Below, piece after piece: positions 24,422 to 33,836 of a stretch of DNA of 64,000 nt; the first letter of the stretch is position 1; each line of letters opens with the position of its first letter. The translations under genes and the position numbers were made by a program. Source of the stretch: Parapedobacter defluvii (GTDB lineage Bacteria; Bacteroidota; Bacteroidia; Sphingobacteriales; Sphingobacteriaceae); assembly GCF_014642075.1 (NCBI RefSeq), contig NZ_BMIK01000007.1, positions 62,001 through 126,000 of the forward strand, given 5' to 3'. Below the pieces are notes generated by a model. It made no database searches and was not told the origin of the DNA. It worked only from the letters and a program-made list of their open reading frames with translations.

Positions 24422-24934
24422 CGCTTTTTCTTTTAATTCATCAATTAATTTGTCTACGCTTTCCTCAGTAAGGTTTTCGTAAAACGTATACTCGGGGCCA
24501 ATCTGCAATACAGGGCCATAACCGCACGCAGCCAGGCATTCCACTCCCCGCCAGCTGAACAGTCCATCGGGTGTCACCTCCCCTTCTTTTACGCCCAAAC
24601 GGGTTTCGATATGCTTCATGATCCGTTCAGCTCCTACCAGGCAACACGGGCCGGTGCGGCATACTTCCAACGCATATTTACCGGGAGGCCGCAGGAAAAA
24701 CATGGTATAAAACGTCGCTACCTCATATACTTCAATGGGTTCAATCCCAAGATACGCAGCTACCCTGTCCATTGCCGGAACACTCAGCCACCCATAGACG
24801 GCCTGTACTTCATGCAATATGGGCAATAGCGCCGATTTTTGCCGACCTTCCGGGTAACGCGCCACAATTTCGGCAAACTTGCCGAGCAATTCATCCGTGA
24901 ATTCCACGGGGTCGTTGTGTTTCACACTAAGCAT
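24407..24934 (-). CDS. nuoE: NADH-quinone oxidoreductase subunit E
   Basis: Thioredoxin-like [2Fe-2S] subunit (cluster N1a) of the NADH dehydrogenase module, 175 aa. The four Cys ligands lie in EVCRTGPCCLVG and VECLAACGYGP. The start overlaps the nuoD stop by 8 nt. Its last three codons lie in a short repeat that continues into the spacer, which suggests repeat growth has altered the C-terminus slightly. Confidence 0.95.
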   Translation of the reverse strand: MLSVKHNDPVEFTDELLGKFAEIVARYPEGRQKSALLPILHEVQAVYGWLSVPAMDRVAAYLGIEPIEVYEVATFYTMFFLRPPGKYALEVCRTGPCCLVGAERIMKHIETRLGVKEGEVTPDGLFSWRGVECLAACGYGPVLQIGPEYTFYENLTEESVDKLIDELKEKAAAIG

Positions 24935-26162
24935 CCAGTTCTCCTGCTATAACATTTAGACTACTCATATTGATGATGGCATCCGAAAGCAACATCCCAC
25001 TGCTCATAGGCGCATACATCTGATAGTTTATAAACGAAGGTCTACGGAAATGCAACCGGTAGGGCGACCTACCTCCATCACTGATCAGGTAAAAGCCCAA
25101 CTCGCCGTTAGCACCTTCCACACAATGATATAATTCCTTTTTAGGTGCGTCTATTTCGCCCATTACAATCTTAAAATGGTAAATCAACGCTTCCATATTA
25201 TTATACACCTGCTCCTTTGGAGGCAGGTAGAAATCCGGCACATCTGCGTGAAATATGCCTTTGGGCTCTTTTTCAATCTTTGCCAGCGCCTGCTCAATCA
25301 TTCGCAAACTTTGCCACATCTCACTGTTGCGAACGAGAAAGCGATCGTATACGTCGCCGTTCGTACCTACGGGTACTTCAAAATCAAATTCCTCATAGGA
25401 GGAATACGGTTCATTTGCCCTCACGTCATAGTCCACCCCTGTAGCCCTCAAAATAGGACCGCTCCAACTGTAGTTAAGGGCCGTTTCAGGATCAACAGCC
25501 GCCACGCCTGCGGTCCGCTCAATAAAGATCCGGTTACGTTCGAGCAACGCTTCAAATTCTTTCAGTACCGCCGGAAATTCTTTTACAAACTGCTTGATTT
25601 TCGAAAAAGCCGTTTCGTTGAAATCTCTTTCAAATCCCCCAATCCGGCCAATATTTGTCGTCAGGCGTGCTCCGCAGATTTCCTCAAAAATTTCATAGAT
25701 AAACTCCCGCTTTACCATCATGGGAATGAACCCTGCAAACGTTCCCGTATCCACGCCCAATATACCATTGCAAATAATATGGTCTGCGATGCGGGACAGT
25801 TCCATGATAATCACCCGCATGTACTGTACCCGTTTCGGAAGTTCAATATCCAGCAGCTTCTCGACCGTCATGTGCCACCCCATGTTATTGATGGGTGATG
25901 AACAATAGTTGAGCCGGTCGGTCAGTGTGGTGATCTGATAATAAGCACGGTGCTCGGATATCTTCTCAAAAGCGCGGTGAATATACCCAATGGTAGACAC
26001 ACCACTGACGATGCGTTCTCCATCTACCTGCAATACATTTTGGAACACCCCGTGTGTGGCGGGGTGGGTCGGGCCGAGATTGAGGGTAAACAATTCCTCC
26101 TGCGGATCGTTGTCCACAAAAACCGGTTTATTGCTCGTAATCTTACTGATTGATTCGCTCAT
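24927..26162 (-). CDS. nuoD: NADH-quinone oxidoreductase subunit D
   Basis: 49-kDa-type subunit that lines the quinone pocket, 411 aa. The quinone-binding loop LGPTHPATHGVF lies near residue 30, followed by GYIHRAFEK and the C-terminal PSFINYQMYAPM. NuoC and NuoD are separate genes here, not fused as in E. coli. The 3' end overlaps nuoE by 8 nt. Confidence 0.96.
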   Translation of the reverse strand: MSESISKITSNKPVFVDNDPQEELFTLNLGPTHPATHGVFQNVLQVDGERIVSGVSTIGYIHRAFEKISEHRAYYQITTLTDRLNYCSSPINNMGWHMTVEKLLDIELPKRVQYMRVIIMELSRIADHIICNGILGVDTGTFAGFIPMMVKREFIYEIFEEICGARLTTNIGRIGGFERDFNETAFSKIKQFVKEFPAVLKEFEALLERNRIFIERTAGVAAVDPETALNYSWSGPILRATGVDYDVRANEPYSSYEEFDFEVPVGTNGDVYDRFLVRNSEMWQSLRMIEQALAKIEKEPKGIFHADVPDFYLPPKEQVYNNMEALIYHFKIVMGEIDAPKKELYHCVEGANGELGFYLISDGGRSPYRLHFRRPSFINYQMYAPMSSGMLLSDAIINMSSLNVIAGELDA

Positions 26163-26174
26163 ATTACATACCGC

Positions 26175-26678
26175 TTACCTTCCAAAGAAGTAGTCCTTTT
26201 TATCCATGCGATTGGGATCTTCCAGAGGATATTCTTTACGCATGGGGAATACTTCCATATCGTCTACGTTCAATATTCTGCGCAGGTCAGGATGTCCTAC
26301 AAACTGGATTCCGAAGAAATCGTATGTTTCACGTTCCATCCAGTTAGCGCCATTCCAAAGCACAGTTGCCGTCGGGATCGCCGGATAACTGCCTTCTAAA
26401 AAGACCTTAATCCGGATACGTACGCCATTCACCAAGCTGTGCAGGTGATACACCACTGCAAATTCTTTCGGGAGATGGGGGTAATGAACTGCCGTGATAT
26501 CGGTTAGATAACCAAACTGCAATTCCCCATTTGTTTTTAAAAATTCAAGGACGTCTAAGATATCCTCCTTACCGGTTTCCAGGGTCAACAAACCATAGGA
26601 TTCTTCCAATGGATTGAACCGCCCTTCAAACCGGGAGTTAAGGCGCGCAATGATACTTTCGTTACTCAGCTTAGCCAT
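26175..26678 (-). CDS. nuoC: NADH-quinone oxidoreductase subunit C
   Basis: 30-kDa-type peripheral subunit, 167 aa. The family signature is ERETYDFFGIQFVGHPDLRR, followed by PMRKEYPLEDP. The start overlaps the nuoB stop by 8 nt. It scaffolds NuoD and NuoI in the connecting module. Confidence 0.95.
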   Translation of the reverse strand: MAKLSNESIIARLNSRFEGRFNPLEESYGLLTLETGKEDILDVLEFLKTNGELQFGYLTDITAVHYPHLPKEFAVVYHLHSLVNGVRIRIKVFLEGSYPAIPTATVLWNGANWMERETYDFFGIQFVGHPDLRRILNVDDMEVFPMRKEYPLEDPNRMDKKDYFFGR

Positions 26679-27222
26679 GGGTAGTGAATCCGTATTTCTC
26701 CAGCAATGCTTTATACTCCGGCGTTTGCCTTCTGTTTAATGATTCGTTTTTTACAATTTCCTGTAAACGCATCACACCGTCAAGAATTGCCTCCGGCCTC
26801 GGAGGGCACCCGGGCACATATACATCCACCGGAATAATTTCATCAATTCCCTGTAACACGGAATAGGTATCAAATATCCCCCCACTGGATGCACAGGCTC
26901 CGACAGCAATTACCCACCTAGGTTCTGCCATCTGTGAATAGACCTGCCGGAGTACCGGTCCCATCTTCTTGGCAATGGTACCCATCACCATGAGCATATC
27001 GGCCTGCCGGGGTGAGAAACTATTACGCTCCATCCCGAAACGGCCAGCATCGTATGTTGCAGCCATGGTAGCCATAAACTCAATGCCGCAGCAGGAAGTC
27101 GCAAATGGTAACGGCCACAACGAGTTGGCTCGTGCCAAACCGATTGCCTTATCCAATGATGTCGCAAAAAAACCGGACCCTTGAATCCCCGGGGGAGCTT
27201 CCGCTAATTTTATATCACTCAT
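26671..27222 (-). CDS. nuoB: NADH-quinone oxidoreductase subunit B
   Basis: Subunit carrying cluster N2, the final electron donor to quinone, 183 aa. Ligands are the tandem Cys in TSCCGIEFMA, one Cys in VGACASSGG and one in YVPGCPPRPEA. A 122-bp gap separates it from nuoA, unusually long for this operon, and holds a terminator-like hairpin. Confidence 0.96.
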   Translation of the reverse strand: MSDIKLAEAPPGIQGSGFFATSLDKAIGLARANSLWPLPFATSCCGIEFMATMAATYDAGRFGMERNSFSPRQADMLMVMGTIAKKMGPVLRQVYSQMAEPRWVIAVGACASSGGIFDTYSVLQGIDEIIPVDVYVPGCPPRPEAILDGVMRLQEIVKNESLNRRQTPEYKALLEKYGFTTHG

Positions 27223-27241
27223 TACTAACCCCTTACCTATC

Positions 27242-27274
27242 TAAAAACAAAAACCCATCAGTTACAAACTGATG
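27242..27274 (-). terminator. Terminator-like hairpin between nuoA and nuoB
   Basis: On the minus strand a 7-bp stem CATCAGT / ACTGATG with a 5-nt loop is followed by GGTTTTTGTTTTT. It lies after nuoA and before nuoB in the direction of transcription, so it may attenuate or partly uncouple the operon. Confidence 0.65.
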
Positions 27275-27344
27275 AGTGCAAATCTACAATATATTGCCCT
27301 TTAATCCGGCTATTTATATTATTTAGAAACGTTCTAACAAATAG

Positions 27345-27722
27345 CTATTCCCAATCTAATGCCCTTTTTTTGATGACATAAATAAAGCCCAAAAGCAGTA
27401 AAGCCATAAATACAAACATTTCGATCAGTCCTGATAAACCGAACTCCCGGAAGTTAACCGCCCAGGGGTACATAAAAATGACTTCGATGTCAAAAATCAC
27501 AAACAATATGGCAACAATAAAGTATTTGATGGAGAAAGGTTGCCTGGCATTCCCGATAACTTCCACCCCCGACTCGAACGACCCCAGTTTGGTGGCCGTC
27601 TTTACTTTGGGGCCGATGAAATGGGTCAACAAAATCACACCCACCGAAAATAATGTGGCTACACCAAATTGAATAAGAATGGGTAAATAATCCGCAGGTG
27701 TGCTCAATACTTCTGATTCCAT
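27345..27722 (-). CDS. nuoA: NADH-quinone oxidoreductase subunit A
   Basis: First gene of the complex I operon; a membrane subunit with three helices, 125 aa from the ATG at 27722. It has the loop KLGSFESGVE (FESG as in E. coli NuoA) and the following IKYFIVAILFVIFDIEVIFMYPW helix region with conserved acidic residues. A TTG at 27746 and an ATG at 27728 are also in frame. The -7 element at 27744-27751 excludes the TTG. The position ahead of nuoB is standard, but an internal terminator-like hairpin follows. Confidence 0.94.
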   Translation of the reverse strand: MESEVLSTPADYLPILIQFGVATLFSVGVILLTHFIGPKVKTATKLGSFESGVEVIGNARQPFSIKYFIVAILFVIFDIEVIFMYPWAVNFREFGLSGLIEMFVFMALLLLGFIYVIKKRALDWE

Positions 27723-27743
27723 ATGCATAATCCTAAGATGCGC

Positions 27744-27751
27744 CAAAGCTA
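27744..27751 (-). promoter_or_regulatory. -7 promoter element of the nuo operon
   Basis: Minus strand TAGCTTTG, a full match to TAnnTTTG, about 22 nt before the nuoA ATG. The -33 region falls inside the upstream gene's terminator stem and has no clear TTG. Confidence 0.6.
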
Positions 27752-27783
27752 AAAAATAAAGCGCTAATTCTAAAATTAGCGCT
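27751..27783 (-). terminator. Terminator of the Ton/TPR operon
   Basis: Perfect 10-bp stem AGCGCTAATT / AATTAGCGCT with a 4-nt loop (27760-27783). On the minus strand it is followed by TTTATTTTTT. It lies 30 nt after the TPR gene and immediately before the nuoA promoter. Confidence 0.85.
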
Positions 27784-27812
27784 CTATTGAATCTATAAAA
27801 ACAGAAGTTTTT

Positions 27813-29552
27813 CTACTGACCGGAAGCTGCACCTGTCGACGCTGCAGACTCTTGTTCCAAATACTGCAAGGTTTGTTTCGCCCAGGTATTTCCAGGATCA
27901 AGCTTCAGAACCTCGCCGATCAAATCCCGGCCCTTTTGGTACTCGCCGCGCTTTACACTAACTACAGCAATTGTGCTGTACGCATCAATAAGTTTGCTCT
28001 TATTTTTCTGGATTTCAGCATCCCCTTTTTCTTTGACCATTTCAATATATTTCAGAAAATAAGGTTCAGCCAGGCCCTTCGGATTTTCGGTATCATCCAA
28101 CAAATTATTTACGTTCGCACGGAACAAATAAGCATCCTGTGTAGTAGGCGCCTGTTCAATTACCACACCGAAGGCTGTATCAGCTTTATGCAACAGGGCG
28201 GTTTCTGCCTCTCCCCGTTGGGCTACCGGTTTGGTAGCTACGGCATAGTAAGCGGAATACCCCAAATAGAAGTTGTCGTAAATGAAATTCCTGGAAGTAG
28301 GCGTGGAAGCGGCAATTTCAAATACTTTGGAAGCATCCAGAAATTTCTTAGCCGTAAACAGCTCTTTACCCACATCGTTCAAATCGTTAGCAACAGACGA
28401 GTCGGCAGCTACCGCCTTCTTCAGCTGATTAATCCCTTCACTAAACAGGACTTCGTCAGTTGGGTCGCTTTGGGTAGCCAATTTGATGTCCGCCAATCCC
28501 AAATGCAAATAGTCGAGCTGAATGATCCGCTCAGCTTCAATCCGCGTAAACAGTTTATCTAAGGCATCTTTACTTTCCTGATACTGTTTATTTTCATAGG
28601 CTGAATACCCGAGGTAACGCAATACTTTCGGATTCACATCTTCCAACTGCGCCAACTCCGCTGCTTGTACTTGCAGCTCTTCGTAGTCCTTCACATATAC
28701 CAAGAAGTCAGCATAACGAATCCGGGATTCTACCGTATAATCGGTCTTATCCATGTATTGCTTGTAGTAGTTCACGCCTTCACGGTTGCGCGCATTGTAA
28801 GCCACCGTATCGGTCGCTGTCAATGCCCAAGCACGATAGGTCTCTGCCAACTCGCGGTAAGTCGGTGCATAGTCCGGCACATCTGCTGCAATCTGCTTTA
28901 AGCCATCAATTGCCTCTTGCCAAGCATACGACCCACGGGTGATGACCTGCATCTGAACCCGGGCACGTGTCAATGTATTGTCCAACACCGATGCATCCCG
29001 GTAGTTTTTGTAGGCCATACTGTTATTTTTCAACCCGAAATACGCATCGCCCAATGCCAACGGAATCAACGGATCCTTGAGATTTTTAGCCTTTGCCTGA
29101 TCCAGATACTCCACTGCTTTTTGGTAATCCGGATTCGGCGCATCGATATAAGCACGTCCGATGTGATACAGTTCCAAATAGTCCTTACGCTTGAGCTTTC
29201 CGGTCGCTTCTGCAAATTTAGTAGCAGCAGCGGCGGCGTCTTCTTTATACAGATCTATGATCCCTTTTCCCACCGTGTTCAGGTTTCCTTTCGGGTCTGC
29301 TGCAATCCCCTGATCAAAAACGGCTAAGGCTGAATCCAAGTGCTCATTATGTATGTATACAAGCCCTAAATAAAAATAATTCTCTCCATCTTTCGGCTTG
29401 TTCTTCACAAGCGTTTCCAACATTCCTTTCGCCTGGGCAAACTGTTCTGCATCAATTGCCTTCTTCGCATCGTCCAAACTCTGCGCACGTACCCCGGTAA
29501 CCACAAAAGCAAGGGATATACCCCATATCATTGCTTTTTTCATCATGTTCAT
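27813..29552 (-). CDS. Exported tetratricopeptide-repeat protein
   Basis: Periplasmic TPR scaffold, 579 aa, with a signal peptide ending near VRAQ (residue 24). Degenerate TPR units run along most of the protein, for example GENYFYLGLVYIHNEHLDSA, AVEYLDQAKAKN and YQKGRDLIGEVLKLDPGN at the C-terminus. There is no enzymatic domain. It is the last gene of a seven-gene operon that starts with exbB, 23 nt after the PstS-like lipoprotein gene. The context suggests a protein-protein platform linked to the Ton system; this is inference. Confidence 0.85.
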   Translation of the reverse strand: MNMMKKAMIWGISLAFVVTGVRAQSLDDAKKAIDAEQFAQAKGMLETLVKNKPKDGENYFYLGLVYIHNEHLDSALAVFDQGIAADPKGNLNTVGKGIIDLYKEDAAAAATKFAEATGKLKRKDYLELYHIGRAYIDAPNPDYQKAVEYLDQAKAKNLKDPLIPLALGDAYFGLKNNSMAYKNYRDASVLDNTLTRARVQMQVITRGSYAWQEAIDGLKQIAADVPDYAPTYRELAETYRAWALTATDTVAYNARNREGVNYYKQYMDKTDYTVESRIRYADFLVYVKDYEELQVQAAELAQLEDVNPKVLRYLGYSAYENKQYQESKDALDKLFTRIEAERIIQLDYLHLGLADIKLATQSDPTDEVLFSEGINQLKKAVAADSSVANDLNDVGKELFTAKKFLDASKVFEIAASTPTSRNFIYDNFYLGYSAYYAVATKPVAQRGEAETALLHKADTAFGVVIEQAPTTQDAYLFRANVNNLLDDTENPKGLAEPYFLKYIEMVKEKGDAEIQKNKSKLIDAYSTIAVVSVKRGEYQKGRDLIGEVLKLDPGNTWAKQTLQYLEQESAASTGAASGQ

Positions 29553-29575
29553 TCTATTTAGTTTAAACTTCTATT

Positions 29576-30487
29576 TTACTTCCTGATAATCAATTCTCTT
29601 GGCGGTATGCTATCCGGCAATAATCCGGCTTTCAAAATTACCCGCTGACCGGACTCCCCCGTCAGGTACGCTGCAAACCCCATGCCTAAACTCTTACGGG
29701 GTTCCGCGTTAATGATATAAACCGGCCGGGCCAACGCATATAGACTGTCTGCTAAATTAGATTGTGAAGGTTTATAATATCCTCCACCCGCCGGCTCACC
29801 CTCACGTCCTTTCACGCCCAATACCTTTATCCCCTCTACGTACTTCTTTATGCCATTATCGGGCCTTACAATCCAACTGACGCCGACCACACCGATTGAC
29901 TGGGGTGTCTCATACACATACTTCAGCACATCAAGGTTCGACTTCAATGCATATACACCGTTCGCTGGCAACGAATCCACTCCCGCTAACTCCTTCAACA
30001 ATCTCACCGTGCTAGAGTTCGGATTATCAAATACCAACTGATTCAGCGAACCGGTCGATTTTTCACCTCGCATGATTTTTACCAAGTGATCCAACGTGAT
30101 TACCGAATCAGAAACCTGCTTATTGACAATAACAGCTACCGCATCTGTTGCAAACTTGTACACCCGGGGTGTAAACTTACGCGCTTTAAAGAACTGGTTT
30201 TCCTGTTCGGTCAATTGCCTCGTCAATACCGCCACCTCTACTTCCTTATTCAGCAGTTTGCGGATGATCTGGTTCTCCTGAGCGCTCGTTAATTCCACAT
30301 TTGTGCGGTCATACAAATGCTCAAATACCGCTACTTGTTCCTCCATGACCGGAAGCAGTGTCTCGTCCGCTACCACCTCCACTTTACCACTAACAATGGT
30401 CTGAGCCCGCTTTGTTTCGGCGTTATTACAGGACCAAAAAGCAACTATCCCAAAGAAAACGAGCCGTAATAATACTAATTTTTTCAC
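29576..30487 (-). CDS. PstS-like substrate-binding lipoprotein
   Basis: Lipoprotein of 303 aa with a signal peptide and lipobox ending FWSC (Cys20). The mature part resembles the PBP-like (PstS) fold: KVEVVADETLLPVMEE, NVELTSAQENQIIRKLLNKE, VAVLTRQLTEQE and DAVAVIVNK are typical strand and loop elements. In phosphate-binding homologues the corresponding loops bind phosphate, but I cannot confirm the ligand residues here. It is not next to pstCAB; it lies in the exbB-exbD-exbD-tonB operon. A role in phosphate uptake is therefore doubtful, and a sensor or Ton accessory function is possible. Confidence 0.78.
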   Translation of the reverse strand: MKKLVLLRLVFFGIVAFWSCNNAETKRAQTIVSGKVEVVADETLLPVMEEQVAVFEHLYDRTNVELTSAQENQIIRKLLNKEVEVAVLTRQLTEQENQFFKARKFTPRVYKFATDAVAVIVNKQVSDSVITLDHLVKIMRGEKSTGSLNQLVFDNPNSSTVRLLKELAGVDSLPANGVYALKSNLDVLKYVYETPQSIGVVGVSWIVRPDNGIKKYVEGIKVLGVKGREGEPAGGGYYKPSQSNLADSLYALARPVYIINAEPRKSLGMGFAAYLTGESGQRVILKAGLLPDSIPPRELIIRK

Positions 30488-30539
30488 GGTTATGAAAAAA
30501 TAACCAATTTTTTACAAAATCTCAACCCCACTATTTGCA

Positions 30540-30773
30540 CTACCGATTTTGCCAAAGTCGCACAAATCGAAAAAAAGAGTAAACAACCAGTAGGACTCCA
30601 AACAATGTCCGCAGGGTCCTATCCAACTGAAGCGGAAAATCCTTCCAAAAAATAATTGCCATTCCCAACGCAAAATAAAAGCCGAACATAAATAGTCCCA
30701 AAACAGACAGAAACCGCTTGGTGGGCGATTTCTGTCTGCCATTTGTGTTTTGTTGATGCGGTTGCGATGCCAA
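30540..30773 (-). CDS. Small two-helix membrane protein in the Ton operon
   Basis: 77-aa protein with a basic, polar N-terminus (about 1-20) and two membrane helices, FLSVLGLFMFGFYFALGMAI and LRTLFGVLLVVYSFFRFV. It sits 7 nt after tonB and 52 nt before the PstS-like gene, on the same strand. I do not recognise a named family, though similar small proteins occur in Bacteroidota Ton operons as I recall. The clean helix pattern and operon position support a real gene. Confidence 0.72.
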   Translation of the reverse strand: MASQPHQQNTNGRQKSPTKRFLSVLGLFMFGFYFALGMAIIFWKDFPLQLDRTLRTLFGVLLVVYSFFRFVRLWQNR

Positions 30774-30780
30774 GCTTTAC

Positions 30781-31614
30781 CTATTGTTGAAGGTTAAGCC
30801 GGATGGGCAACGTATAAGCTACCCGAACCGGACGACCGTTCTGAATACCCGGACTCCACTTTGCTGCTTTGGAAAGAAGCTTTACCGCTGCGTCTCCCGT
30901 ACCGTATTTCAAGTCTCTAACAACCTTTATATCAGTCAGACTTCCATCTCGCTCCACAACGAAAGACACCTGCACCTGACCATTCACACCAGCCTCAATG
31001 GCAGCCTGTGGATAATCATAATTTTTGGCAATCCATTCCATGAACGACTTCATTCCTCCCGGTGGTTCCGGATTGATTTCAACGGATTGGAAGATCTGGT
31101 CACTTGATGTTTCCGTTACTTCCGCGTCTATTTCGCCTTCACCTACCGGCAAATCAATCCGGATTTCCGCATTCGGATCCCCTTCAATGGTTTTTGATCC
31201 CGGATCTGCCAATTTAAGTTGCTCAACCGTGGGAGGTTCCTCATCCTGTACCTGTTCTGCGGGGACCACCTTCGGCTCGGGCATACGCACCTGGTCCACC
31301 CGGGGGGGAGGAGGTTCTACGGGTGGGGGGGGAGGAGGTTCCTCTTCATTTACGGGTGGCGGCTCTGAGAGCACCACCTCGGTCTCAATAATTTGCTCGG
31401 TCGGCTCATTACTACCCAAATCTACTCCAATCCACCGTGCAATCGCAGGTGATAATAAAAGCAGCACAAAAGCAATGGATGCCGAAAACAACCCGATGGT
31501 AGTAGCTCTGGGCGACAACTTACGGAGCTCATATGCACCATAAGCCTTGTTTCGACCGTCAAATACCACATCGAGCCATTCTTTCCTAAAAATATCCAAT
31601 TTTGAACCTATCAT
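30781..31614 (-). CDS. tonB: Energy transducer TonB
   Basis: Links the inner-membrane proton motor to outer-membrane receptors. 277 aa: a cytoplasmic N-terminus (about 1-38, with GRNKAYGAYELRKL, common in Bacteroidota TonB), one membrane helix at about 39-62, a proline-rich periplasmic span with EEPPPPPPVEPPPP, and a TonB C-terminal domain (about 190-277) with YPQAAIEAGVNGQVQVSFVV. It follows two exbD genes and exbB, so a whole motor is encoded together. Likely clients include SusC-type receptors such as the one at the right edge. Confidence 0.93.
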   Translation of the reverse strand: MIGSKLDIFRKEWLDVVFDGRNKAYGAYELRKLSPRATTIGLFSASIAFVLLLLSPAIARWIGVDLGSNEPTEQIIETEVVLSEPPPVNEEEPPPPPPVEPPPPRVDQVRMPEPKVVPAEQVQDEEPPTVEQLKLADPGSKTIEGDPNAEIRIDLPVGEGEIDAEVTETSSDQIFQSVEINPEPPGGMKSFMEWIAKNYDYPQAAIEAGVNGQVQVSFVVERDGSLTDIKVVRDLKYGTGDAAVKLLSKAAKWSPGIQNGRPVRVAYTLPIRLNLQQ

Positions 31615-31636
31615 AGCTATATTCTGTGGTTATTCA

Positions 31637-32149
31637 TCAATCGTTATACAAGTTGTCCCGCTTCAATACTTCAATTTCCGGATCGCTGATGGTACCGATC
31701 ATATAAATCGGTGCCTTGATGATATTCATTTCATCCAGTATATCCACCAAATTGCGGTGTGTCGATTTTTCACTGGGGCGTAGTACAATAATCAAGTCTT
31801 TCCCGGTCTGTTGCTTCACCTGCTCCATCTTTTTAATCAAGATGGGCCGGATCCCCTCTTTACCGTAATCGACAATTTCAGGCCCTTCGATAGGATTGCT
31901 GTAATCGCCATGATACCACTCGATCTTGTTGTTGCTGCCGAGCAGCAGCGTCAGGGTCCGGGTATCGGCTACCTCCAGCCTATCTTCCGGATCTTCTTCG
32001 TTCTTATCCGGCATCGCCACATCCATGGCATTCGGCTTGTTGATCGACGTGGTAAGCATGAAAAAGGTGATCAAGAGGAACGCCAAATCCACCATGGCCG
32101 TCAAGTCCACTCTTGGCTGCTGCTTACCGCCGGTATTTAATTCTGCCAT
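31637..32149 (-). CDS. exbD: ExbD-family motor subunit (second copy)
   Basis: Inner-membrane ExbD/TolR protein, 170 aa. A single N-terminal helix carries the proton-path aspartate in DLTAMVDLAFLLITFFMLTT. The periplasmic domain then has a variable insert and the conserved end YMIGTISDPEIEVLKRDNLY. It is the second of two adjacent exbD genes, 22 nt before tonB. Paired ExbD proteins are common in Bacteroidota Ton operons. Confidence 0.92.
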   Translation of the reverse strand: MAELNTGGKQQPRVDLTAMVDLAFLLITFFMLTTSINKPNAMDVAMPDKNEEDPEDRLEVADTRTLTLLLGSNNKIEWYHGDYSNPIEGPEIVDYGKEGIRPILIKKMEQVKQQTGKDLIIVLRPSEKSTHRNLVDILDEMNIIKAPIYMIGTISDPEIEVLKRDNLYND

Positions 32150-32182
32150 TTGTTATTTCCTTTATTGTTAGACCGTATTGCC

Positions 32183-32812
32183 TTACATTCCTTCTCCGGC
32201 ACGGAGACTGGTGATCAAGCTGAACTTGTTCACCTTTTGGCTTTGCAATACATCGATTACCTTTTTGATTTCAGGGTATTTCTCTTCGGCATCCCCTTTA
32301 ATCGAAACCCTCATCTCGGTGTTTTTTAACTCCTTGGTTGCTACACGCGCTGAATAAATCCAATGGAACAGCTCATTGCTTAACGCATCGGTCGAGTCAA
32401 CCGGGATTCCCGGTTGGAGCCCGGGCTTCACGCGGTCATTTGGCCCCATGTTAATCAATTGCTTTAAGTTACCTATCGGTACACCGAAAGTTTCCATCGT
32501 AGAAAACTTAGCCTTCTCTTCCGGTGTAAACGGTATGGAATATTTTTCAGACATGAGTTCAAGCATCCGGCTCCGTGCGTTCCGATTGACTACGCCAAAA
32601 AAGACTTTACCTCCGTCACCAACCGTTATCAGTCCTAAATCGTCATCCGGCACTTTTACCTGCGTAACCGATGCCGGTGTATCCACCGGCAATGGCTCAG
32701 GTTCCCGGGCCGTGGCTGTCAATATAAAAAACGTGAGCAGTAGAAAAGACACATCGCACATGGCGGTCATGTCTATTGTCGTACTTGCTCTCTTTACTTT
32801 AACCCTTGGCAT
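32183..32812 (-). CDS. exbD: ExbD-family motor subunit (first copy)
   Basis: ExbD/TolR protein of 209 aa, longer than the second copy. The helix DMTAMCDVSFLLLTFFILTA holds the conserved Asp. The periplasmic part has an extended central insert (about 75-155) before the closing YPEIKKVIDVLQSQKVNKFSLIT segment. It lies 33 nt upstream of the other exbD and 71 nt after exbB. The two copies probably form a heterodimer inside the ExbB pentamer; that is inference. Confidence 0.92.
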   Translation of the reverse strand: MPRVKVKRASTTIDMTAMCDVSFLLLTFFILTATAREPEPLPVDTPASVTQVKVPDDDLGLITVGDGGKVFFGVVNRNARSRMLELMSEKYSIPFTPEEKAKFSTMETFGVPIGNLKQLINMGPNDRVKPGLQPGIPVDSTDALSNELFHWIYSARVATKELKNTEMRVSIKGDAEEKYPEIKKVIDVLQSQKVNKFSLITSLRAGEGM

Positions 32813-32883
32813 ATGTGTTTCGTTTTATCTTTACTTATAGATGCATCATCCACCGGCTTTCCATAAATTGCCGGAAATTATTT

Positions 32884-33714
32884 CTATTTATGCGAAGCCG
32901 CATACGTTTGGACGATGGAGAACCCAGCCTCATCTATTGAGTAGGTTAACGTGTCAATCTTGGAAGTAAAGATGTTATAGAATACAATTGCGATAGCAGA
33001 CGTAGCAATACCCGTTGCTGTGTTAATCAACGCTTCGGAGATACCGTTTGCCAATTGTGCTGAATCAGGCGCACCACCGGTGGCAAGTGCCGAGAAGGCC
33101 TTGATCATCCCGGTTACCGTACCCAATAGACCCGTCAACGTACCGATGGACACCAAGGTAGCCATAATCGTCAGGTTTTTCTCGAGCATCGGCATTTCCA
33201 ATGCAGTAGCTTCCTCAATTTCCTTCTGAATAGCTACGGTAGCCTGCTCCGTGTCGAGCGCCGGATTTGCTGACACATCTTTGTATTTCAACAAACCTGC
33301 TTTGATTACGTTCGCTACCGAACCCTGTTGTTTGTCACATTCCGAGATGGCCGAATCAATGTTACCGCCTCCGATAAGCGACTGGATTTTCCGCACGAAA
33401 TTACCCACGTTACCTTTTCCGGAAGCCCGGCTGATTACGATAAAGCGCTCAATTGCAAAAACCCATACCATCAAGAACAACCCCAACAACACAGGAACCA
33501 CATATCCTGCGTGGTAAACCATTCCTAAGTAATTGCCTTCTACCGGACGATTTTCAGGATTCCCGTCAACGAAGTTATTCGGATCACCCATAATATATCT
33601 CCATACCAATGCTCCGATAATGAAACAAATGATAATTGCCAGACTTGCAAAAACATTGGATGTTGAATTGCTCTTCTCCTTTTTAATTGTGCTTGTTTTT
33701 GGTGCGTTTGCCAT
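32884..33714 (-). CDS. exbB: ExbB/TolQ/MotA-family proton channel
   Basis: Pore-forming motor subunit of the Ton system, 276 aa. A membrane helix at about 25-45 and another at about 75-95 precede a cytoplasmic domain. Two further helices follow, with the family core LTIMATLVSIGTLTGLLGTV and NTATGIATSAIAIVFYN. It is the first gene of the operon and has a good promoter. The TolQ alternative is less likely because tonB and no tolB or pal follows. Confidence 0.93.
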   Translation of the reverse strand: MANAPKTSTIKKEKSNSTSNVFASLAIIICFIIGALVWRYIMGDPNNFVDGNPENRPVEGNYLGMVYHAGYVVPVLLGLFLMVWVFAIERFIVISRASGKGNVGNFVRKIQSLIGGGNIDSAISECDKQQGSVANVIKAGLLKYKDVSANPALDTEQATVAIQKEIEEATALEMPMLEKNLTIMATLVSIGTLTGLLGTVTGMIKAFSALATGGAPDSAQLANGISEALINTATGIATSAIAIVFYNIFTSKIDTLTYSIDEAGFSIVQTYAASHK

Positions 33715-33806: not shown

Positions 33807-33836
33807 CAAATATAGTGTTTTAAAGTAAAAACAAAA
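33807..33836 (-). promoter_or_regulatory. Promoter of the exbB-tonB-TPR operon
   Basis: Minus strand: -33 TTTTG (33836-33832), a 17-nt spacer and -7 TATATTTG (33814-33807). This gives a 5' leader of about 85 nt. Confidence 0.7.

Follow-up and report, generated by a model that had tools for sequence, protein, structure and literature searches.

A 64,000-nucleotide stretch of the Parapedobacter defluvii genome (contig NZ_BMIK01000007.1, positions 62,001 to 126,000; hereafter the window) carries at 27813-33714, on the minus strand, a seven-gene operon in which the genes of a Ton motor, exbB-exbD-exbD-tonB, are followed by three more, encoding a small membrane protein (smp), a PstS-like lipoprotein and a tetratricopeptide repeat (TPR) protein. 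The seven genes make up a conserved cluster for which one promoter and one terminator are predicted. Our comparison across the phylum supports the trio as an accessory module of this motor, and its evolutionary tie to the ExbB/ExbD/ExbD/TonB machinery is well supported; with moderate confidence, we identify the operon as the Bacteroidota Ton motor with two ExbD proteins, accompanied by an accessory module of its own. An earlier note on this DNA had described the motor genes as running unbroken into three more, and all seven open reading frames lie where it had placed them:

33807..33835, minus strand: Bacteroidota-type promoter, TTTG-N17-TATATTTG, 5' of exbB
32884..33714, minus strand: exbB, 276 residues, cognate motor subfamily, with an N-terminal extension (Pfam PF01618, 103 bits)
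32183..32812, minus strand: exbD1, 209 residues (PF02472, 4e-17, 63 bits), with an Asp within the transmembrane segment DMTAMCDVSFLLLTFF
31637..32149, minus strand: exbD2, 170 residues, a second ExbD differing from the first (PF02472, 3e-15, 57 bits), with an Asp within the transmembrane segment DLTAMVDLAFLLITFF
30781..31614, minus strand: tonB, 277 residues, Pro-rich linker and TonB_C domain (PF03544, 2e-16, 61 bits)
30540..30773, minus strand: smp, 77 residues, two hydrophobic segments; the start is most likely TTG at 30773
29576..30487, minus strand: PstS-like lipoprotein, 303 residues, GTG start at 30487, lipobox Cys20 (PBP_like_2, PF12849, 95 bits)
27813..29552, minus strand: TPR protein, 579 residues, signal peptide and all-helical repeat array (several Pfam TPR families)
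27755..27788, minus strand: strong intrinsic-terminator-like hairpin of 15 pairs with a T run, directly 3' of the TPR gene

As judged from Pfam matches and sequence, the features of a Ton motor are all present, namely ExbB, a transmembrane Asp in both ExbD proteins and the TonB C-terminal domain. Ton motors with two ExbD genes are already known. Among named relatives, Parapedobacter koreensis has the ExbB nearest to that of the window, with 97% identity (L073). From exbB to the TPR gene, successive genes are separated by 71, 33, 22, 7, 52 and 23 nucleotides. Promoters of the trio's own, which the earlier note had named as an argument against a joint unit, were not found: between 27.7 and 34.2 kb, the match upstream of exbB is the sole Bacteroidota-type promoter.

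The gene order was examined in 80 named genome loci, retrieved by searching with aligned sequences of the operon's ExbB. In 70 of them, some with an additional tonB, exbB-exbD-exbD-tonB is followed by smp, the PstS-like gene and the TPR gene, a recurrence that is far beyond chance and that bears out by synteny the earlier suggestion of a cluster recurrent in the phylum. The full order is seen in Sphingobacteriaceae, Flavobacterium, Pontibacter, a Saprospiraceae metagenome-assembled genome (MAG), an Ignavibacteria MAG and others; among the remaining ten loci, several stop at a contig edge, and loci of Chitinophaga, a Cytophagales MAG and a Saprospiraceae MAG are among the others. In the named loci, the median gap is 3 nucleotides between tonB and smp, -4 between smp and pstS, and 22 between pstS and tpr. 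Forty loci from across the phylum agree with this result. Homologues of smp, for which no Pfam or NCBIfam family was matched, amount to 35 open reading frames across the window and the 40 phylum loci, and smp adjoins the PstS-like gene in 69 named loci. The genes flanking the operon in the window, dagK-sui1/yciH upstream and the nuo operon downstream, recur only in Sphingobacteriaceae-type loci, apart from nuoAB in one Chitinophagaceae-type locus. Since the flanks reshuffle while the seven genes stay together, the cluster appears to be selected; a by-product of overall synteny was rejected as an explanation, as the flanks are kept only near the window's own family. A scan of viral contigs yielded no relative that would indicate viral carriage. 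Absence or separation of the trio in most relatives, which would have spoken against the proposed module, was thus not observed, yet the trio is detached from the motor in several lineages. A second tonB stands between tonB and smp in some loci, giving a tandem-TonB operon (L140, L144, L145, L147, L151, L050 and L052, from Pontibacter, Hymenobacter and others).

Co-occurrence was determined in 99 genomes drawn over the phylum. TPR orthologues were taken as full-length matches of at least 243 bits, with the next best paralogues at 151 bits or less, and the cognate ExbB subfamily as matches from about 200 bits upward, with at most 137 bits for other ExbB proteins. By these cuts, 34 of the 99 genomes, from 15 families, carry the TPR orthologue, and all 34 have the PstS-like gene directly upstream of it (in G039 the pair is split over contig ends) as well as a cognate ExbB. 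None of the 42 genomes that lack the cognate ExbB encodes the TPR protein. The three families of mixed content (f4, f14 and f16) comprise 12 genomes with both ExbB and the TPR protein and 10 with neither, and not a single discordant one. The Fisher value for the association is 3e-11, which ignores relatedness, and the concordance within families is the better argument.

In three Chitinophagaceae-type genomes, so assigned from gene order and from the Chitinophaga loci of the named set, the order is tonB-smp-pstS-tpr, nuo genes, exbB-exbD-exbD-tonB (L160/L161, L162/L163 and L164/L165). Here some 20 kb separate the trio from the motor, and the trio has a tonB of its own in front (L160, L163 and L164). 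As the internal order of the trio is kept wherever it is located, we consider it a unit.

The AlphaFold2 model of the lipoprotein displays a confident periplasmic binding protein (PBP) fold (mean predicted local distance difference test score, pLDDT, 93), and its closest folds in the PDB are PstS proteins, which a sequence search of the PDB also returned. The PstS receptors 4OMB, 4PQJ and 4GD5 share this fold (TM score 0.67-0.71 to the query) at weak sequence similarity. In contrast to them, however, the lipoprotein has no pstCAB alongside, lacks the canonical ligand set and is tied to a Ton motor. The phosphate-binding arginine of PstS, whose role is known from established structures, sits in the motif RxxxSGT. 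In an alignment of 36 Ton-linked proteins, the corresponding column is Asp in 18, Pro in 7 and Gly in 5, and the window's protein reads D154-N-P-N-S-S-T at this site. Nor is the Gly-Ser ligand loop kept in the linked family, which has Gln-Glu in its place. What is conserved instead are Cys20, D-E-[ST] at positions 41-43, R90, E96, D115, S158 and YPL at 250-252. Because the ligand Arg is not conserved and the Gly-Ser loop is replaced, phosphate binding is unlikely. At least eight genomes (for example G080, G021 and G142) encode the Ton-linked protein without any match to PstC. Judged by its sequence, the lipoprotein is thus not a phosphate receptor; the candidate of a phosphate binder or orphan Pst receptor was rejected on the ligand residues and on its independence from PstCAB, and the binding or sensing of phosphate that the earlier note had proposed is not supported. 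That note's remark that pstCAB is missing holds for the Ton locus, where no pst genes were found, but not for the genome, as another contig carries a complete pstSCAB with a canonical-type PstS. Inspection of the residues that follow the lipobox cysteine revealed no evident surface-export signal of the kind known from Bacteroidota, and we therefore assume an anchor facing the periplasm.

Two further arrangements of PstS-like genes were encountered. In L048:5706-8105 and L053:5987-8147 (families f15 and f28) two PstS-like genes stand in tandem with no adjoining smp or TPR gene, and the first of them has an extended N-terminal part. In family f17, a PstS-like lipoprotein gene is located elsewhere, beside arg genes (L051 and L059), in L051 also with permease-like genes.

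The model of the TPR protein (pLDDT 94) is helical throughout from residue 26 to the C-terminus, with about 15 hairpins, and its PDB matches by sequence and by fold are generic TPR superhelices. The structure 3u4t (Cytophaga hutchinsonii Q11TI6) scores 224 bits against the family profile and may be a fragment of an orthologue by its sequence, although generic consensus TPR proteins equal or exceed this score. Conservation is strongest around residues 216-240, which makes this segment a candidate contact site.

A counterpart of the operon has been studied in Riemerella anatipestifer, whose TonB2 locus reads leuS-exbB-exbD-exbD-tonB-PstS-like in the available part of the report (PMC4446302). We met the same arrangement, exbB-exbD-exbD-tonB and after it a PstS-like gene on the same strand, in our loci, in L166 also with leuS upstream; as its order equals that of L166, we take the two, by gene order and annotation, to be the same operon. 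The available text describes the tonB2 deletion mutant as viable, with poor growth on hemin and on chelator and reduced use of hemin and iron (PMC4446302). In Escherichia coli, ExbB2-ExbDD-TonB2 did not restore TonB function, whereas the three-gene ExbB1-ExbD1-TonB1 system did; as described there, the TonB2 construct was without the trio, and the system that worked is itself trio-less (PMC4446302). Failure of a trio-less construct is what an accessory module predicts, though other causes are possible. The paper counts four genes in the TonB2 system and names the PstS-like gene only as a flank, and smp and the TPR gene go unmentioned in the portion available (PMC4446302). This is the sole mention we found; in the open-access literature, with preprints and most subscription papers outside the search, there was no description of the three-gene module, of its linkage across the phylum or of its dependence on an ExbB subfamily, in line with the earlier note's view that the added genes are undescribed. 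In Bacteroides thetaiotaomicron, expression of BT2664-BT2668 (substrate-binding domain protein, ExbD and ExbB) changed under iron deficiency, but the published list contains neither a small protein nor a TPR gene, and no functional work on the substrate-binding protein is included (PMC10434189). The TonB-ExbBD genes of Flavobacterium psychrophilum are among those highly expressed under all conditions (PMC9723704).

Two known systems resemble the operon in part. In E. coli, the Tol-Pal genes likewise combine a motor driven by the proton motive force and its transducer with a lipoprotein and with CpoB, a TPR protein of the periplasm that monitors the energy state of TolA (PMC4458516). Our operon differs in having TonB as the transducer, in lacking both the TolB propeller and Pal, and in a TPR protein of about 580 residues built of tetratricopeptide repeats throughout. 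Pfam detected neither TolA nor a TolB propeller nor a Pal OmpA-like domain in the seven genes, and where CpoB has an N-terminal coiled coil and a short C-terminal TPR domain, the TPR array here spans the whole mature protein. Membership in CpoB or Tol-Pal was rejected on these domains. The clusters TolQ-TolR-TolR-vWA of the PVC group likewise pair a motor that has two distinct ExbD/TolR proteins with a neighbouring TPR gene, but their transducer is a vWA protein instead of TonB, and a PBP-fold lipoprotein or smp is not reported in the part of the paper available (PMC12204202).

On these grounds, we propose that the trio is an accessory module, as argued by synteny, by co-occurrence with the cognate ExbB, by joint gain and loss within three families and by the detached trio keeping a tonB. 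ExbB and the ExbD1/ExbD2 pair would form the proton-driven motor for TonB, and smp, with its two transmembrane segments, would reside beside it in the inner membrane. On the periplasmic side, the TPR superhelix and the PBP-fold protein on its lipid anchor may bind each other as well as the periplasmic parts of TonB and ExbD. The resulting scaffold would present TonB to outer-membrane transporters, or reset and recycle it from them, the PBP fold probably being used to bind a protein or some ligand other than phosphate, instead of acting as the receptor of an ABC importer for phosphate. In this way the module would be needed for, or tune, the energisation of the phylum's many TonB-dependent transporters, including those of the SusC type, and the trio may be parts the motor needs to work. 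This reading as a whole, module and scaffold mechanism together, appears to us somewhat probable.

Several observations weigh against it. Membership in an operon is no proof of a shared complex, and the failure in E. coli may be due simply to TonB2 being unsuitable or to weak expression. Of the 57 genomes with a cognate ExbB, 23 are without the TPR protein (20 from f17, two from f15 and one from f28), and the motor can therefore exist without the full trio; the loci inspected show exbB-exbD-exbD-tonB alone in f17 (L153 and L154) and the motor with a diverged smp in f15 and f28. The trio is found without a neighbouring tonB in four loci (L042, L067, L039 and L056). Correlations of pairwise identity between the operon proteins (r 0.60-0.89) are expected from common descent alone and were not counted as evidence of contact.

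Some of these facts would suit passive co-transcription, with the trio performing an unrelated envelope function and merely riding in a conserved block, for several lineages have it apart from the motor, and f17 has the motor without smp or TPR protein. Such an arrangement is hard to reconcile with the strict dependence on the cognate ExbB and the concordant presence and absence within families, with flanks that reshuffle around seven genes remaining together, and with the tonB preceding the detached trio in three genomes, and we judge it rather improbable. The accessory role is the part of the earlier note's "accessory or sensing module" that stands, carried by synteny and strict co-occurrence with the cognate ExbB, whereas its phosphate sensing finds no support in the ligand residues. 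A broader form of sensing or capture, in which the PBP-fold lipoprotein binds a small ligand, be it phosphate or another nutrient that TonB-dependent transporters bring in, and signals to the motor or passes the ligand on, draws on the confident fold nearest PstS and on conserved cleft positions with the family-specific D-E-[ST] and N-S-S motif. Yet phosphate is disfavoured by the lost Arg and the replaced Gly-Ser loop, the operon contains no permease or kinase, and the lipoprotein is kept in genomes without a PstC match, which leaves this a doubtful option.

We would give equally little weight to a replacement of Tol-Pal, whereby in Bacteroidota, being without tol-pal, the operon would carry out envelope-integrity or division work, with the TPR protein in a CpoB-like and the lipoprotein in a Pal- or TolB-like role. 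Its layout resembles tolQ-tolR-tolA-tolB-pal-cpoB, and CpoB does read the energy state of TolA (PMC4458516), but the operon has no OmpA-like peptidoglycan-binding or beta-propeller domain, the tonB2 deletion of R. anatipestifer is, in the text available, viable with a hemin and iron uptake phenotype (PMC4446302), the whole system is absent from 42 of the 99 genomes, and PorE has already been proposed for the tethering role. In a bolder extension of the accessory-module reading, the trio would set the operon apart as its own class of proton-driven machine spanning the envelope: the Ton motor would depend on a periplasmic stator or adaptor complex, made of the PBP-fold and TPR proteins, which ordinary Ton systems do without. 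Such an obligate complex would explain why the four-gene motor failed in E. coli, and the machine, if real, could also serve Tol-like envelope tasks in a phylum without Tol-Pal; we regard this extension as unlikely.

Bacteroidota feed via very many TonB-dependent transporters of the SusCD type, and their drive is usually discussed as an E. coli-like ExbB/ExbD/TonB. A three-gene module tied to one motor subfamily over 15 sampled families suggests that parts of the motor have gone unexamined. It would account directly for the report that the two-ExbD TonB2 system did not work in E. coli, and it highlights candidate periplasmic partners of a Ton motor in Bacteroidota.

A diverged smp homologue of 131 residues follows exbB-exbD-exbD-tonB in lineages without the TPR protein (L155:4206-4601 and L157:9865-10260), which suggests that, of the motor's accessories, smp may be the oldest. 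In the window, complex I (nuo) genes come directly after the operon on the same strand, at 24927-27746, as they do in most Sphingobacteriaceae-type loci. In L160-L165, the nuo operon splits the Ton operon, with tonB-smp-pstS-tpr before nuoA and exbB-exbD-exbD-tonB after the last nuo genes.

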